The notes beneath the pieces are model-generated. The model ran no database searches and was not told the DNA's origin. It was given only the letters and a program-made list of their open reading frames with translations. Both the position numbers and the translations under genes were made by a program. From Haemophilus parainfluenzae (GTDB taxonomy: Bacteria > Pseudomonadota > Gammaproteobacteria > Enterobacterales > Pasteurellaceae), in the NCBI RefSeq assembly GCF_036288925.1, contig NZ_CP127167.1:62001-126000 (forward strand): a stretch of DNA of 64,000 nt, given 5' to 3'. Positions within the stretch are counted from its first letter, which is position 1, and every line of letters begins with the position of its first letter. Positions 38,788-54,844 of this stretch are shown one piece after another.

Positions 38788-38804
38788 AAAAGTGCGGTCA
38801 TTTT
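38788..38804. repeat. Left arm of a USS-pair terminator split by IS copy 1
   Basis: AAAAGTGCGGT (38788-38798) plus CATTTT of the former loop. The matching right arm ACCGCACTTTT is at 40054-40064, on the other side of the insertion. Joined, they form the terminator of fadR. Confidence 0.85.
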
Positions 38805-38830
38805 TGATCTGACCCCAAAAAGTTAGACTG

Positions 38831-39700
38831 TTATTTAAAGGATTGTTTTCGATATTGTATCGGACTCAGTCCTTTTAATTTTAGTTGAATCCGTCGATGA
38901 TTATAGTAATCCAAATAATCTCTGACAGCATCAACTATCTCTTCTTTTGTTTTAAATTCCCGACCATAAAAACATTCCGTTTTTAATCGCCCAAAGAAAC
39001 TTTCCATTGCGGCATTGTCCAAGCAATTCCCTTTTCTCGACATACTTTGAATGATGCCATGTTCAGCTAAAATTCGACGATAAGCTACCATTTGATATTG
39101 CCATCCCTGGTCTGAATGTAAAATGACACCACAAGCTTTATTTAATCCTTTGACGGCTTGCATTAACATGTCCTCTACTTGCGCCCAATTTGGGGAATAG
39201 CTGAGATTATAGGAGACTATCTCATTGTTAAATAAGTCTAAAATTGGAGATAAATAGACTTTACTCCCATCTTTCGCCTTAAACTCGGTGATATCTGTCA
39301 CCCATTTTTGTTTCGGGGCCGTTGCACTAAAATCGCGTTCAAGATGATTCGGTGCAATTACCCCTATCGTGCCTCGATAGGTGGTAAATTTCTTGCTTTT
39401 TCTTGACCGCACTTGAAGCCCAAGTGTCTGCATTAAACGTTGAACTTTTTTATGATTCACGCCTGGCAAGCTGGCATGAACACGTCGGTAGCCATAATCA
39501 GGATGATTGGCTTTGATGCGTTTAATGGCCTTTTTCAGCTCCTCATCCTTATCCGGTTTAATCTGAAGTTTCGCAAAAAACGTACTACGCGCTAACTGTG
39601 CAAAGCCTAAAAGCCATTTTAACGGATAGCGTGTTCTTAACCTTTGGATAATTTCCGTTGCTCGGCTTCGTCCTGAAGTCTGAGCCTTCTCAACTCCTTT
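38831..39700 (-). CDS. IS3-family transposase OrfB (DDE integrase part)
   Basis: Open without stop from about 39700, reading [34 protein letters not shown] and [17 protein letters not shown], then the integrase core with catalytic D (WVTDITEF), D ([10 protein letters not shown]) and E ([11 protein letters not shown]). About 289 aa, the normal size. A start at TTG 39469 would lose the first quarter, so expression is more likely by -1 frameshift from orfA; the overlap contains CCTAAAGG, where an A-AAG slip near 39697-39700 is possible. The slip site is inference. A USS core lies inside (39406-39414). Confidence 0.88.
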
Positions 39701-40029
39701 AGGTAGGCTACCTCCGCTTCAAGCTGTAAAATTCTCAGGCGTAAACGGTCTTCTTCAGTTTTGGGTGGCGGTGGCATTCTGGCATATTTAGGTTTCATAG
39801 GCGGTCGTCCTGATGGTTTACGGGGAATAAGTCCCTTTATGCCACTTTTTTCAAACCGTTTCAACCATGTCCCGACTAGGGCGTTGGAAGGAATATTGTA
39901 AAAACGAGCTGCTTCTCTAATACTCATTTTTCCATTCAAAATAGGTTGAAGAATTTGTAATTTAAATTCGATTGTGTAGTGTTTACCCATAAAAAATCTG
40001 CACCTCAATTGTTGGTTTGTTGAGTCCAA
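39637..40029 (-). CDS. IS3-family OrfA (helix-turn-helix part)
   Basis: 130 aa. HTH in MSIREAARFYNIPSNALV, then a basic linker (GLIPRKPSGRPPMKPKYARM) and a leucine-zipper-like coiled coil ([20 protein letters not shown]). This is the DNA-binding half of the transposase. Identical to the protein in copy 2. The true start could be the ATG 12 codons inside (MGKHYTIEFKLQIL), since the first residues overlap the terminal repeat region. Confidence 0.9.
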   Translation of the reverse strand: MDSTNQQLRCRFFMGKHYTIEFKLQILQPILNGKMSIREAARFYNIPSNALVGTWLKRFEKSGIKGLIPRKPSGRPPMKPKYARMPPPPKTEEDRLRLRILQLEAEVAYLKELRRLRLQDEAEQRKLSKG

Positions 40030-40068
40030 CTTTTGGGGTGCAGATCATTTTCAACCGCACTTTTAATA

Positions 40069-48518: not shown

Positions 48519-50288
48519 TTACGCTTTGCGGATTTTCTCAATCCATTGTAAAAATTCAACAGGCGGCATGAATCCGTTAACACGACTGCCTTCAATTTCT
48601 TTTCCTTCTCGATTAAAGAATAAAATCGTCGGTAAACCTAGCACTTTATACTTTGTCATTAAAGCGCGGTTTTCTTCGGAGTTTTTCGTCATATCAACTT
48701 GAAGAAGCAGCATGTCACCAAAGGCTTTTTGTACACTTGGATCACTAAATGTTTCTTTTTCAAACTCTTTACACGCCACACACCAATCCGCATAAAGATC
48801 GAGCATCACAAGTGGTTTGTTATTTTCAGCAAGTGCTTGTTGTAATTCAGCTTCGCTTTTCACTTTCTTAAATTCAACATGAGAAACCGCCTTATTTTCG
48901 ACCGCACTTGGTGCTTGGCTTTCACCCCACACCCAAGATTGAAGTGGTTTAACACTAATCATTGCCGCGACTAAAAAGAGAATTCGGAATACCCAGCCTG
49001 TACCATTTTTCGGCATTTGGAATGCAAACCAAATGAAAAATGCTGTACCGAGCATCGCCCATAATCTTGGTGTCCATTCATCTGGTAAAATACGAGAAAT
49101 TAAGAATACCGGTAATGCGAGCATCACAAAGCCAAAGAGTTTTTTGACGGTTTCCATCCACATACCTGATTTAGGCAGGATTTTATTCCCAAATAAAGTG
49201 ATTAAAATCAGCGGTACGCCCATACCCAACGCGAGCAAATAAAGCGTGATCGCACCTGTAAACAAATCCCCACTCTGCGCCACATAAAGCAACGCGCCAG
49301 AAAGTGGTGCTGATGTGCAAGGTGAAGCTACAAGTCCCGCAATCATGCCCATTAAGAACACGCCACCCAAAGCGCCAGCTTTTTGCTGTTGGCTAAGTAA
49401 AGACAGTTTTGTTTGTAAGGAGCTTGGAAGCTGTAAGGTAAATACACCGAACATCGACAAGGCTAACAAGACAAAGATGATTGATAAACCAATCATTACA
49501 TAAGGATGTTGTAAAGCCACTTGGAACGGTAAACCAATTGCGGCGACAATCAAGCCTAGCAAGGTATAAGTCAGCGCCATCCCCTGCACATACACAAAGC
49601 TTAATGCAAAAGCACGCCACATATTAGGTCGCTGATTTTGGCCAATCACAATCGCTGAAAGCAGTGGTAGCATTGGCAATACACAAGGGGTAAAGGCCAA
49701 CCCTAAGCCTAATAAGAAAAAACCAAATATGGCATATTTGCTATTAAATAAGCTTTCCGCTAAACGGTCTTGTTCTGCTTTGGGTTGTGCTGAAAGTGCG
49801 GTCGAATTTTCCGATATTTTTTCAGTATTAGCGACCTGTGCAATAGGCAAATCTGCCACTTTAATTTCTTTCACTTCAGGCGGATAACAAAAGCCCTCAG
49901 TACAGCCTTGGTAAGCAATCTCAACCACATCTTCTGCTTTTAATGGCGACTGACTCGCTTTAAAAATAGCTTGCACGGGTTTTTTGAAAATTTTCATCAA
50001 GCCAAAATAAGGATCGTTATAATCCTCGGGGGAAATAGAAAATATCGGTGCATCAAATGATGCATTTTCTTCTTGATTGAGCTTGACGGAAATTTTCTCT
50101 TGATAGAGATAATACCCTTCTGCAATCGACCAATTGACGATCACATTTTCTTGATTCTCACTTTTCGCAGCTGAAAATTGAAAAGCTTCATCAATAGGTA
50201 AAAAAGCCGTTTTCTTATCAAAAAGACTAGCTTGAGTGGAAAGTGTGGTAAAAATAAAAAATAAAAAAAGAAGAATTCGCTTCATCAT
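48519..50288 (-). CDS. dsbD: Thiol:disulfide interchange protein DsbD
   Basis: Carries electrons from cytoplasmic thioredoxin to periplasmic DsbC and cytochrome maturation proteins. 589 aa: signal peptide (FIFTTLSTQA), N-terminal periplasmic domain with CTEGFCYPPE, eight-span central domain with cysteines in TPCVLPML and ASPCTSAP, and C-terminal thioredoxin domain with WCVACKEF. All three cysteine pairs are present. Two ATG codons in a row begin the gene (50288 and 50285). Confidence 0.97.
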   Translation of the reverse strand: MMKRILLFLFFIFTTLSTQASLFDKKTAFLPIDEAFQFSAAKSENQENVIVNWSIAEGYYLYQEKISVKLNQEENASFDAPIFSISPEDYNDPYFGLMKIFKKPVQAIFKASQSPLKAEDVVEIAYQGCTEGFCYPPEVKEIKVADLPIAQVANTEKISENSTALSAQPKAEQDRLAESLFNSKYAIFGFFLLGLGLAFTPCVLPMLPLLSAIVIGQNQRPNMWRAFALSFVYVQGMALTYTLLGLIVAAIGLPFQVALQHPYVMIGLSIIFVLLALSMFGVFTLQLPSSLQTKLSLLSQQQKAGALGGVFLMGMIAGLVASPCTSAPLSGALLYVAQSGDLFTGAITLYLLALGMGVPLILITLFGNKILPKSGMWMETVKKLFGFVMLALPVFLISRILPDEWTPRLWAMLGTAFFIWFAFQMPKNGTGWVFRILFLVAAMISVKPLQSWVWGESQAPSAVENKAVSHVEFKKVKSEAELQQALAENNKPLVMLDLYADWCVACKEFEKETFSDPSVQKAFGDMLLLQVDMTKNSEENRALMTKYKVLGLPTILFFNREGKEIEGSRVNGFMPPVEFLQWIEKIRKA

Positions 50289-52210: not shown

Positions 52211-52348
52211 ATGAAAGTATTATCTTCACTCAAAAGCGCAAAGAACCGTCCTGGCTGCAAAATTGTTCGTCGCCACGGTGTCGTCTATGTCATTTCGAAA
52301 ACTAACCCTCGCTTTAAAGCGCGTCAAGGTGGGAAAAAGAAAGGTTAA
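52211..52348 (+). CDS. rpmJ2: Ribosomal protein L36 type B (YkgO)
   Basis: 45-aa protein, [20 protein letters not shown], then [19 protein letters not shown] and GKKKG. It lacks the zinc cysteines and histidine of ordinary L36 apart from one cysteine, so it is the zinc-free paralogue. Ribosome site TAGGAATA. The pairing with rpmE2 is conserved in many gammaproteobacteria. It lies 25 bases before IS copy 2; the element splits its terminator. Confidence 0.93.
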
Positions 52349-52356
52349 AGGCAATA

Positions 52357-52373
52357 AAAAAGAGCGGTCAAAT
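52357..52373. repeat. Left arm of a terminator split by IS copy 2
   Basis: AAAAAGAGCGG (52357-52367) then TCAAAT. The right arm CCGCTCTTTTT lies at 53623-53633. Rejoined they make an 11-bp perfect terminator stem between rpmJ2 and obgE. The left arm is USS-like (AAGAGCGGT versus AAGTGCGGT). Confidence 0.85.
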
Positions 52374-52399
52374 TGATCTGACCCCAAAAAGTTAGACTG

Positions 52400-53269
52400 T
52401 TATTCAAAGGATTGTTTTCGATATTGTATCGGACTCAGTCCTTTTAATTTTAGTTGAATCCGTCGATGATTATAGTAATCCAAATAATCCCTGACGGCAT
52501 CAACTATCTCTTCTTTTGTTTTAAATTCCCGACCATAAAAACATTCTGTTTTTAATCGTCCAAAGAAACTTTCCATTGCGGCATTATCTAAGCAATTCCC
52601 TTTTCTCGACATACTTTGAATGATGCCATGTTCAGCTAAAATTCGACGATAAGCTACCATTTGATATTGCCATCCCTGGTCTGAATGTAAAATGACACCA
52701 CAAGCTTTATTTAATCCTTTGACGGCTTGCATTAACATGTCCTCTACTTGCGCCCAATTTGGGGAATAGCTGAGATTATAGGAGACTATCTCATTGTTAA
52801 ATAAGTCTAAAATTGGAGATAAATAGACTTTACTCCCATCTTTCGCCTTAAACTCGGTGATATCTGTCACCCATTTTTGTTTCGGGGCCGTTGCACTAAA
52901 ATCGCGTTCAAGATGATTCGGTGCAATTACCCCTATCGTGCCTCGATAGGTGGTAAATTTCTTGCTTTTTCTTGACCGCACTTGAAGCCCAAGTGTCTGC
53001 ATTAAACGTTGAACTTTTTTATGATTCACGCCTGGCAAGCTGGCATGAACACGTCGGTAGCCATAATCAGGATGATTGGCTTTGATGCGTTTAATGGCCT
53101 TTTTCAGCTCCTCATCCTTATCCGGTTTAATCTGAAGTTTCGCAAAAAACGTACTACGCGCTAACTGTGCAAAGCCTAAAAGCCATTTTAACGGATAGCG
53201 TGTTCTTAACCTTTGGATAATTTCCGTTGCTCGGCTTCGTCCTGAAGTCTGAGCCTTCTCAACTCCTTT
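52400..53269 (-). CDS. IS3-family transposase OrfB (copy 2)
   Basis: Same as OrfB of copy 1 apart from the final residue, which is glutamate here and lysine there (QSFE versus QSFK). The other six base differences are silent or outside conserved positions as far as the translation shows. DDE residues intact. Start by frameshift from orfA is inferred. USS core at 52975-52983. Confidence 0.88.
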   Translation of the reverse strand, partial: KGVEKAQTSGRSRATEIIQRLRTRYPLKWLLGFAQLARSTFFAKLQIKPDKDEELKKAIKRIKANHPDYGYRRVHASLPGVNHKKVQRLMQTLGLQVRSRKSKKFTTYRGTIGVIAPNHLERDFSATAPKQKWVTDITEFKAKDGSKVYLSPILDLFNNEIVSYNLSYSPNWAQVEDMLMQAVKGLNKACGVILHSDQGWQYQMVAYRRILAEHGIIQSMSRKGNCLDNAAMESFFGRLKTECFYGREFKTKEEIVDAVRDYLDYYNHRRIQLKLKGLSPIQYRKQSFE

Positions 53270-53598
53270 AGGTAGGCTACCTCCGCTTCAAGCTGTAAAA
53301 TTCTCAGGCGTAAACGGTCTTCTTCAGTTTTGGGTGGCGGTGGCATTCTGGCATATTTAGGTTTCATAGGCGGTCGTCCTGATGGTTTACGGGGAATAAG
53401 TCCCTTTATGCCACTTTTTTCAAACCGTTTCAACCATGTCCCGACTAGGGCGTTGGAAGGAATATTGTAAAAACGAGCTGCTTCTCTAATACTCATTTTT
53501 CCATTCAAAATAGGTTGAAGAATTTGTAATTTAAATTCGATTGTGTAGTGTTTACCCATAAAAAATCTGCACCTCAATTGTTGGTTTGTTGAGTCCAA
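53206..53598 (-). CDS. IS3-family OrfA (copy 2)
   Basis: 130 aa, the same protein as OrfA of copy 1, with HTH and coiled-coil parts intact, so the element appears able to move. Confidence 0.9.
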   Translation of the reverse strand: MDSTNQQLRCRFFMGKHYTIEFKLQILQPILNGKMSIREAARFYNIPSNALVGTWLKRFEKSGIKGLIPRKPSGRPPMKPKYARMPPPPKTEEDRLRLRILQLEAEVAYLKELRRLRLQDEAEQRKLSKG

Positions 53599-53644
53599 CT
53601 TTTGGGGTGCAGATCAAATTTTCCGCTCTTTTTCCATTTAGGCA

Positions 53645-54844
<1,200 letters not shown>

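Follow-up and report, generated by a model that had tools for sequence, protein, structure and literature searches.

The window, that is the whole 64,000-nucleotide stretch of Haemophilus parainfluenzae DNA analysed here, contains two copies of one insertion sequence (IS). The second, IS copy 2, lies between the genes for type B L31 and L36 (rpmE2 and rpmJ2, forward strand) and the convergent gene for ObgE (reverse strand). The features of this locus, and the position of IS copy 1, are given in Table 1.

Table 1. Features at the rpmJ2/obgE locus and position of the other IS copy of the window.
Feature	Position in window	Strand	Remarks
IS copy 1 (L009)	38805..40047	-	inside a second USS dyad, cores 38790-38798 (+) and 40054-40062 (-)
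rpmJ2 (type B L36)	52211..52348	+	upstream of the split terminator
Left arm of split terminator, AAAAAGAGCGG	52357..52367	+	with a USS-like core, AGAGCGGT; 5 bp between the end of the core and the IS
Target duplication AAT, left copy	52371..52373	.	
IS3-family insertion sequence (IS copy 2)	52374..53616	- (transposase leftwards)	1243 bp, TGATCTGACCCC...GGGGTGCAGATCA; NF033516 IS3 transposase
Left terminal inverted repeat, TGATCTGACCCC	52374..52385	+	
orfB, open frame of 295 aa stop to stop, integrase-type DDE transposase	52400..53287	-	PF00665 rve; NF033516, E 9.9e-98
Perfect USS AAGTGCGGT inside orfB	52975..52983	-	
orfA, 117 aa, helix-turn-helix protein	53206..53559	-	overlaps orfB, other frame
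Strong hairpin just inside the right end of the IS, TCTGCACC...GGTGCAGA	53566..53613	-	followed by T6 and the start of orfA
Right terminal inverted repeat, GGGGTGCAGATCA	53604..53616	+	
Target duplication AAT, right copy	53617..53619	.	
Right arm of split terminator, CCGCTCTTTTT	53623..53633	+	with a reverse-strand core, AGAGCGGA (one mismatch); 5 bp between core and IS
obgE, convergent	53645..54817	-	split terminator in common with rpmJ2

The insertion sequence and the terminator that it splits

The element has the attributes of the IS3 family. OrfB matches the family profile NF033516 at 327.7 bits (cut-off of 160) as well as PF00665, i.e., it has a DDE core recognisable at the level of the family, and the ends of the element (TG...CA, with imperfect terminal repeats) and its duplications of 3 to 5 bp are also those of IS3 elements. 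The two genes overlap in different frames, and their products might be joined by frameshifting. A search of the PDB with OrfB as query returned no entry. Besides remnants, the genome carries 17 full copies that are 98-100% identical; for IS copy 1, the longest matching duplication is TTTT.

Just inside the right end, a hairpin of -27.6 kcal/mol (z of -3.4, folded over 53548-53650) pairs the terminal repeat (CTGCACC) with the leader of orfA (GGTGCAG), ahead of the T6-ATG. Inspection by eye shows pairing of this type in IS1397 and ISEcB1 too, and the hairpin is thus perhaps conserved in the group. Rfam gave zero matches between positions 50000 and 56000.

The initial annotation of this DNA had proposed that IS copy 2 interrupts the loop of a terminator serving rpmJ2 and obgE, with a 3-bp duplication of AAT. 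Both parts of this proposal were confirmed. When the flanks are joined by a script that removes one AAT, the site reads AAAAAGAGCGG-TCAAATTTT-CCGCTCTTTTT and is predicted to fold at -15.0 kcal/mol. DNA uptake signals (USS) are the tags by which bacteria of the Haemophilus type recognise DNA of their own kind. Facing cores that resemble USS, A and T tracts, and a stable hairpin together make this, by its sequence, a putative USS-dyad Rho-independent terminator, and USS dyads in general resemble transcription terminators. We infer that the hairpins at IS sites terminate transcription.

Genomes with an empty site gave the same picture. A query from the end of obgE matched all 11 genomes of the genus, in which the rpmJ2/obgE site has the intact terminator in seven, is occupied in three (the genome of the window included) and has an unrelated terminator in one (G080). 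The intact site is GAGCGGTCAAATTTCCGCTC in six of the seven (G072, G073, G074, G076, G078 and G081) and GAGCGGTTAAATTTCCGCTC in G075, where GCGGTT replaces GCGGTC; in all seven, the loop is one T shorter than in the joined site of the window. The predicted empty site thus exists in nature. The other two occupied genomes, G079 (L105) and G077 (L032), have their own IS at the same place, so that three species carry it there in the same orientation and with the same duplication. For two of the three elements, copies within the same genome are the closer ones (99.8% and 98.9%, versus about 97%); this does not hold for the third (L032), which makes separate events at this terminator likely without proving them.

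Other terminators were hit repeatedly. A comparison of flanks across genomes revealed five that are occupied in two species each, seemingly by separate events: in three pairs, the copies have opposite orientations (L006/L125, L007/L089 and L016/L086), and in two they have different duplications (L013/L122 and L015/L114). Further pairs across genomes match on one flank only.

Position of the copies relative to uptake signals

We scored 77 full copies of the element in seven genomes, i.e., 17 in the genome of the window and, in six genomes found by similarity, 38 (G079), 12 (G074), 5 (G058), 3 (G077), 1 (G060) and 1 (G066). Partial and degraded copies, those at contig edges and two pieces without ends in G079 (L120, L121) were left out. 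Two pairs in G058 (L134/L136 and L137/L138) have identical flanks on different contigs, and the 77 copies therefore correspond to at most 75 sites; the pairs may be a duplicated segment or an artefact of assembly or contamination (contamination is listed as 6 for this genome).

Defining the USS-like core as A[AG][TA]GCGG[TC] with at most one mismatch, we found that a core ends 3-7 bp from the end of the IS in all 77 copies, and 5-6 bp from it in 71. Positions at such a distance of 3-7 bp from a core make up 2.8% of a 461-kb sample of the genome that includes the window. Chance placement can thus be rejected, and on firmer grounds than the two insertions out of two from which the initial annotation had argued. 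That annotation had also pointed to GCGGTCA as the common flank. This heptamer is indeed present at the site, yet it is not invariant: GCGGTT, GCGGTG and GCGGTA are also used, and what stays constant is GCGG(T). In 71 of the 77 copies, GCGG is found within the nearest core; the nearest cores of the other six have one mismatch. The longest matching duplication is of 3 bp in 38 copies, 4 bp in 23, 2 bp in four and 5 bp in two; in ten copies there is none, which counts against our main reading, as does the looseness of the rule used to define cores.

Cores are found on both sides of 63 of the 77 copies, two of which are doubtful (for L092 and L141, the second core lies as far as 30 and 21 bp away), and all 17 copies in the genome of the window lie between facing cores, which supports the proposal that USS-like dyads are recognised as targets. 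Hairpins score at least 14 at 65 of the 77 sites (4.9% in a shifted control). Short inverted repeats are thus the usual insertion sites, as in the group of elements that target palindromes.

The exceptions are informative. Of the 14 copies flanked by a core on a single side, three are at a lone core (L082, L085, L131) and three just outside the base of the stem of an outward-facing USS hairpin, 5 bp from the core (L088, L103, L132), all six with duplications. Four others have a degenerate partner core (L093, L114, L134, L136), and another four lack a duplication (L102, L119, L133, L139) and may be rearranged. As the first six are outside any USS loop, a loop is not strictly needed, which also counts against our main reading, and insertion into loops is the rule for most copies rather than for all. 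Ten copies are in wide loops, where the IS adjoins one arm instead of the middle, the far arm being 18-19 bp away. Together, the one-sided and the wide-loop copies indicate that the sequence of the core is recognised and that the symmetry of the dyad is a strong helper.

Could the hairpin itself be the signal, as cruciform DNA or through RNA polymerase paused at terminators, with USS dyads being merely the usual terminators of these genomes? The hairpin scores given above are in line with this idea. Yet no scored copy of this clade lies away from a core, six copies have no surrounding hairpin and are still at 5-6 bp from a core, and the ten wide-loop copies hug one arm. Facing dyads are also a minority of the terminator-like hairpins of the host. 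In the sample of the genome, a script that looks for hairpins with a T tract behind them (score 22, six T) counted 42 that are non-USS, 15 made of facing USS and 9 of outward USS, three more being set aside as internal to the IS; the non-USS class still includes a few outward USS hairpins. The share of facing dyads is 23% with these settings, 30% with a score of 24 and five T, and 18% with a score of 18 and five T; shuffled sequence gave two hairpins in 100 kb at a score of 22 with five T. At a share of 30%, the odds of 17 copies out of 17 are 0.30^17 = 1.3e-9. Among the intergenic cores of the sample (relaxed rule, n = 110), 29 are in facing dyads, 26 in outward ones and 55 are single; strict and loose censuses differ, and the definition of USS matters for these counts.

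The same census bears on survivorship, i.e., that the IS inserts anywhere and that the copies in intergenic terminators are those tolerated. Most sites do look like intergenic terminators, where the cost would be low, and the sites in present genomes are those that survived selection, a point that also weighs against our main reading, the insertion preference being read from genome positions. However, none of the 17 copies in the genome of the window is in the 42 of 66 strong terminator-like hairpins that are not USS-like, the position is fixed at 5-6 bp in 71 of the 77 copies, and the same terminators are hit repeatedly. Survivorship is thus largely refuted, and we give it hardly any credence.

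Natural transformation offers another route to the association, since the spread of USS-bearing DNA would inflate the number of USS-flanked copies. USS are indeed found on both sides of most copies, and 63 of the 77 carry one inside. However, AAGTGCGGT occurs 1358 times in the 2.228 Mb of this genome, i.e., about once per 1.6 kb, a density that predicts about that many internal USS and makes them unremarkable. Uptake cannot fix the IS at 5-6 bp from a core, and lone cores are commoner than facing dyads but rarely used. We thus consider uptake bias a very improbable cause of the pattern.

Three other observations concern the sites. Loops were short rather than long in 11:4 occupied and 25:31 empty dyads (p = 0.08; based on 62 manually entered lengths and on an 11:4 split obtained by eye), from which we claim no preference for short loops. 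One empty USS dyad (G000:C1:161593-161624) has a loop, GGTGCAAAATGATCTGCACC, that contains TGATCTGCACC, which resembles an end of the IS and is perhaps the footprint of a lost copy. Finally, an IS1595-family control gave nine matches, with ends that were not resolved.

Targets of related elements

In a 64-row tree of OrfB, the elements found at USS form a Pasteurellaceae clade with those of G116, G069, G057 and G087 (support of 100/100). Their sister clade (100/98) includes elements from Avibacterium, Rodentibacter, G006, G007, G064, G023 and G115. Those of G004 and G002 are outside the tree and were assigned to the sister clade by DNA identities of 97% and 91%; that of G033 was omitted because of a stop. 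We analysed the targets of 41 copies of these relatives in 13 genomes, 38 of which are in hairpins scoring at least 15, with L298, L362 and L366 counting against the hairpin rule.

The target depends on the lineage. The G116 element, of the nearer lineage, is in USS dyads in seven of nine copies and in stems with GCG in the other two, i.e., it is not exclusive, which is a further point against the main reading. The sister clade includes the closest protein relatives outside the USS clade, and it shares with it the terminator loops (25 of 26 copies are in terminator-like hairpins) and the duplications of 3-4 bp, but the stems have many different sequences. Only four of the 26 copies, all from G023, are in Hin-type dyads of facing GCGGT cores, and three more (L328, L337, L343) have an AAGCGGT-type core, resembling the Apl type, on one near side (Hin and Apl being names of USS types). 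Under the loose rule, 11 of the 26 are near a core, some of them through stems (such as AAAGGGGC or AATGCGAC) that are no USS, and the contrast with the 77 copies out of 77 remains.

The contrast is especially clear between G064 and G023, whose genomes are as rich in the same USS as that of the window (1527 and 1496 occurrences of AAGTGCGGT, against 1358). All 12 of their copies are in hairpins scoring at least 15, and an exact GCGGT is near the IS in none of the five copies of G064 and in four of the seven of G023; under the loose rule, two of the five G064 sites count, with L364 having a one-mismatch core 21 bp away. Since the hosts are alike in USS content and the sites differ, it is the element more than the host that sets the target.

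The stems used in G064 (L363, L364, L365, L172 and L173) all begin with an A tract and a GG-rich arm (AAAGGGGC, AAAGGGCG, AAAGGCTG, AGGGGA and AAGGGGGC), possibly a lineage-specific taste of that element. One of them, at L364, is seemingly the same AAAGGGCG...CGCCCTTT terminator as that occupied by the USS-clade element in G058 (L134/L136), in another species of the same genus (flanks compared by eye). In G008, 52 matches to the IS of the sister clade were found, many covering only 50-200 bp from one end; these may stem from a burst of copies, now degraded, or represent short derivatives that are non-autonomous.

These relatives also bear on the resemblance between the target and the ends of the element. 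IS30 and IS911 have targets that resemble their own terminal repeat, and here the transposase might bind USS through the GGTCA common to GGGGTCAGATCA and GCGGTCA; the resemblance of GGTCA to GGGGT is visible. But the elements of the sister clade have nearly the same terminal repeat and other targets, the spacing differs (7-8 against 5-6 bp), and insertion also occurs at GCGGTT and GCGGTG sites. Mimicry of the terminal repeat is thus disfavoured as the whole reason, and we regard it as improbable.

More distant elements suggest that the taste for hairpins is old. A first set of 40 loci was picked by hand among the matches listed; eight have no right end, and the right ends of L160, L174 and L186 look spurious. 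In the resulting 32 copies, which overlap with the other sets, 18 hairpins score at least 14 and 16 at least 18; among 572 shifted points, 4.9% and 0% reach these scores. The copies L177-L180 (G041, G046, G119 and G056), which have in common a single site with neither hairpin nor duplication, speak against the rule; this same site occurs in genomes of three genera and looks like one horizontally shared segment. A second set, across phyla, was taken from the best 80 of at least 580 relatives: 59 were tried and 21 left out, mostly because contig ends shortened them. Of those tried, 21 gave no ends, and the ends of L215, L216, L224, L231 and L266 look wrong. In the 38 resolvable copies, three of them from Haemophilus, 29 are in hairpins scoring at least 16 (8.6% of 475 control points). 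Hairpin sites were found in Acinetobacter, Mesorhizobium, Veillonella, Treponema, Streptococcus, Paenibacillus, Vibrionales, Kluyvera, Cupriavidus and Rheinheimera, and the Pseudomonas copies have shorter palindromes (L220, L287) or none (L232).

The variety of terminator loops used by the sister clade and by relatives in other phyla is an argument for the hairpin as the signal. Given the attachment of the USS clade to cores, we nevertheless judge it unlikely to account for the present target.

Proposed mechanism and comparison with known elements

The evidence very probably reflects an IS3-family element, akin to IS1397 and ISEcB1, whose transposase directs insertion into inverted pairs of USS, a taste narrowed from hairpins of terminators or REP. 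The data show the positions of the copies, their duplications, the empty sites, the repeated independent hits and a target that varies with the lineage; we infer that the transposase is the determinant and that it reads sequence plus dyad symmetry. OrfAB would place its insertion complex at a GCGG(T) half-site or at a pair of them, cut about 5-6 bp 3' of the core with a stagger of 3-4 bp, and join the ends of the element across the AT-rich middle; a facing pair of cores would be strongly preferred, with a single core being enough now and then. The ancestral form probably used terminator dyads generally, or hairpins of varied sequence in terminators or REP, and the narrowing to USS would have occurred in the Haemophilus lineage, where the taste was probably inherited.

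For the host, the consequence would be a split terminator. The windows over the junctions fold weakly (medians of -6.7 to -9.7 kcal/mol, against -17.3 for the joined sites) and only the right-end hairpin of the IS is strong, so that chimeric terminators rebuilt at the junctions can be rejected. The right-end hairpin could stop transcripts coming from the obgE side and shield the transposase from outside transcription; on the rpmJ2 side, no comparable device was seen in the junction window (median of -6.7 kcal/mol).

A broader scenario can be put forward tentatively. An IS3 subgroup spread across phyla might home to intrinsic terminators by their dyad structure, the Haemophilus lineage having been re-tuned to USS, so that its copies would be born flanked by USS and might ride natural transformation; this coupling to transformation is a possibility only. 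If homing to terminators holds for the wider subgroup, it would explain how a large group of IS can spread at low cost to the hosts. DNA uptake signals would be a new class of target for IS elements, beside the known palindromes. The natural series of transposases, from broad to narrow terminator tastes, can be used to map the determinant of specificity, and the copies offer many natural interruptions of terminators. A search of the open literature, subscription papers not covered, found neither a USS-dyad target, nor the broad terminator homing of the relatives, nor the narrowing relative to the sister clade.

Targeting of palindromes by IS3 elements is already known for PU/REP sequences. IS1397 resembles the element described here in its IS3-type transposase (OrfB 47% identical), its terminal repeat (TGAACTGCACCCC, against TGATCTGCACCCC here, compared by eye) and its insertion into palindromes, but its branch in the OrfB tree is long and lies elsewhere. 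By eye, we take its surroundings to be a palindromic unit (PU/REP); its ends were also read by eye, and the script found no duplication. The repeat of ISEcB1 is again TGAACTGCACCCC, comparable with TGATCTGACCCC/TGATCTGCACCCC. Its OrfB is 52% identical, and in E. coli BL21(DE3) it splits a ACCGCCGA-catg-TCGGCGG hairpin between yfbM and nuoN with a duplication of CATG; unlike ours, this hairpin (one site read) has no USS. ISKpn8 has an OrfB that is 55% identical.

IS1397 and ISKpn1 are described as inserting specifically into palindromic units, in E. coli and Klebsiella, a specificity probably determined by the transposase (PMC1525189). The words Haemophilus and uptake do not occur in the text of that article. 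ISKpn1 can be likened to our element by that description only (PMC1525189), and the target of both differs from the USS dyads and terminators used here, which are not PU/REP sequences. The same holds for ISPsy8, another IS3-family element, described as strongly tied to extragenic palindromes, the REP of P. syringae (Tobes and Pareja 2006, PMC1525189): by description, the association with palindromes is shared and the REP target is not. Our best reading is that the element belongs to a lineage of the IS3 family that targets palindromes and terminator loops, with USS dyads as its narrowed target.
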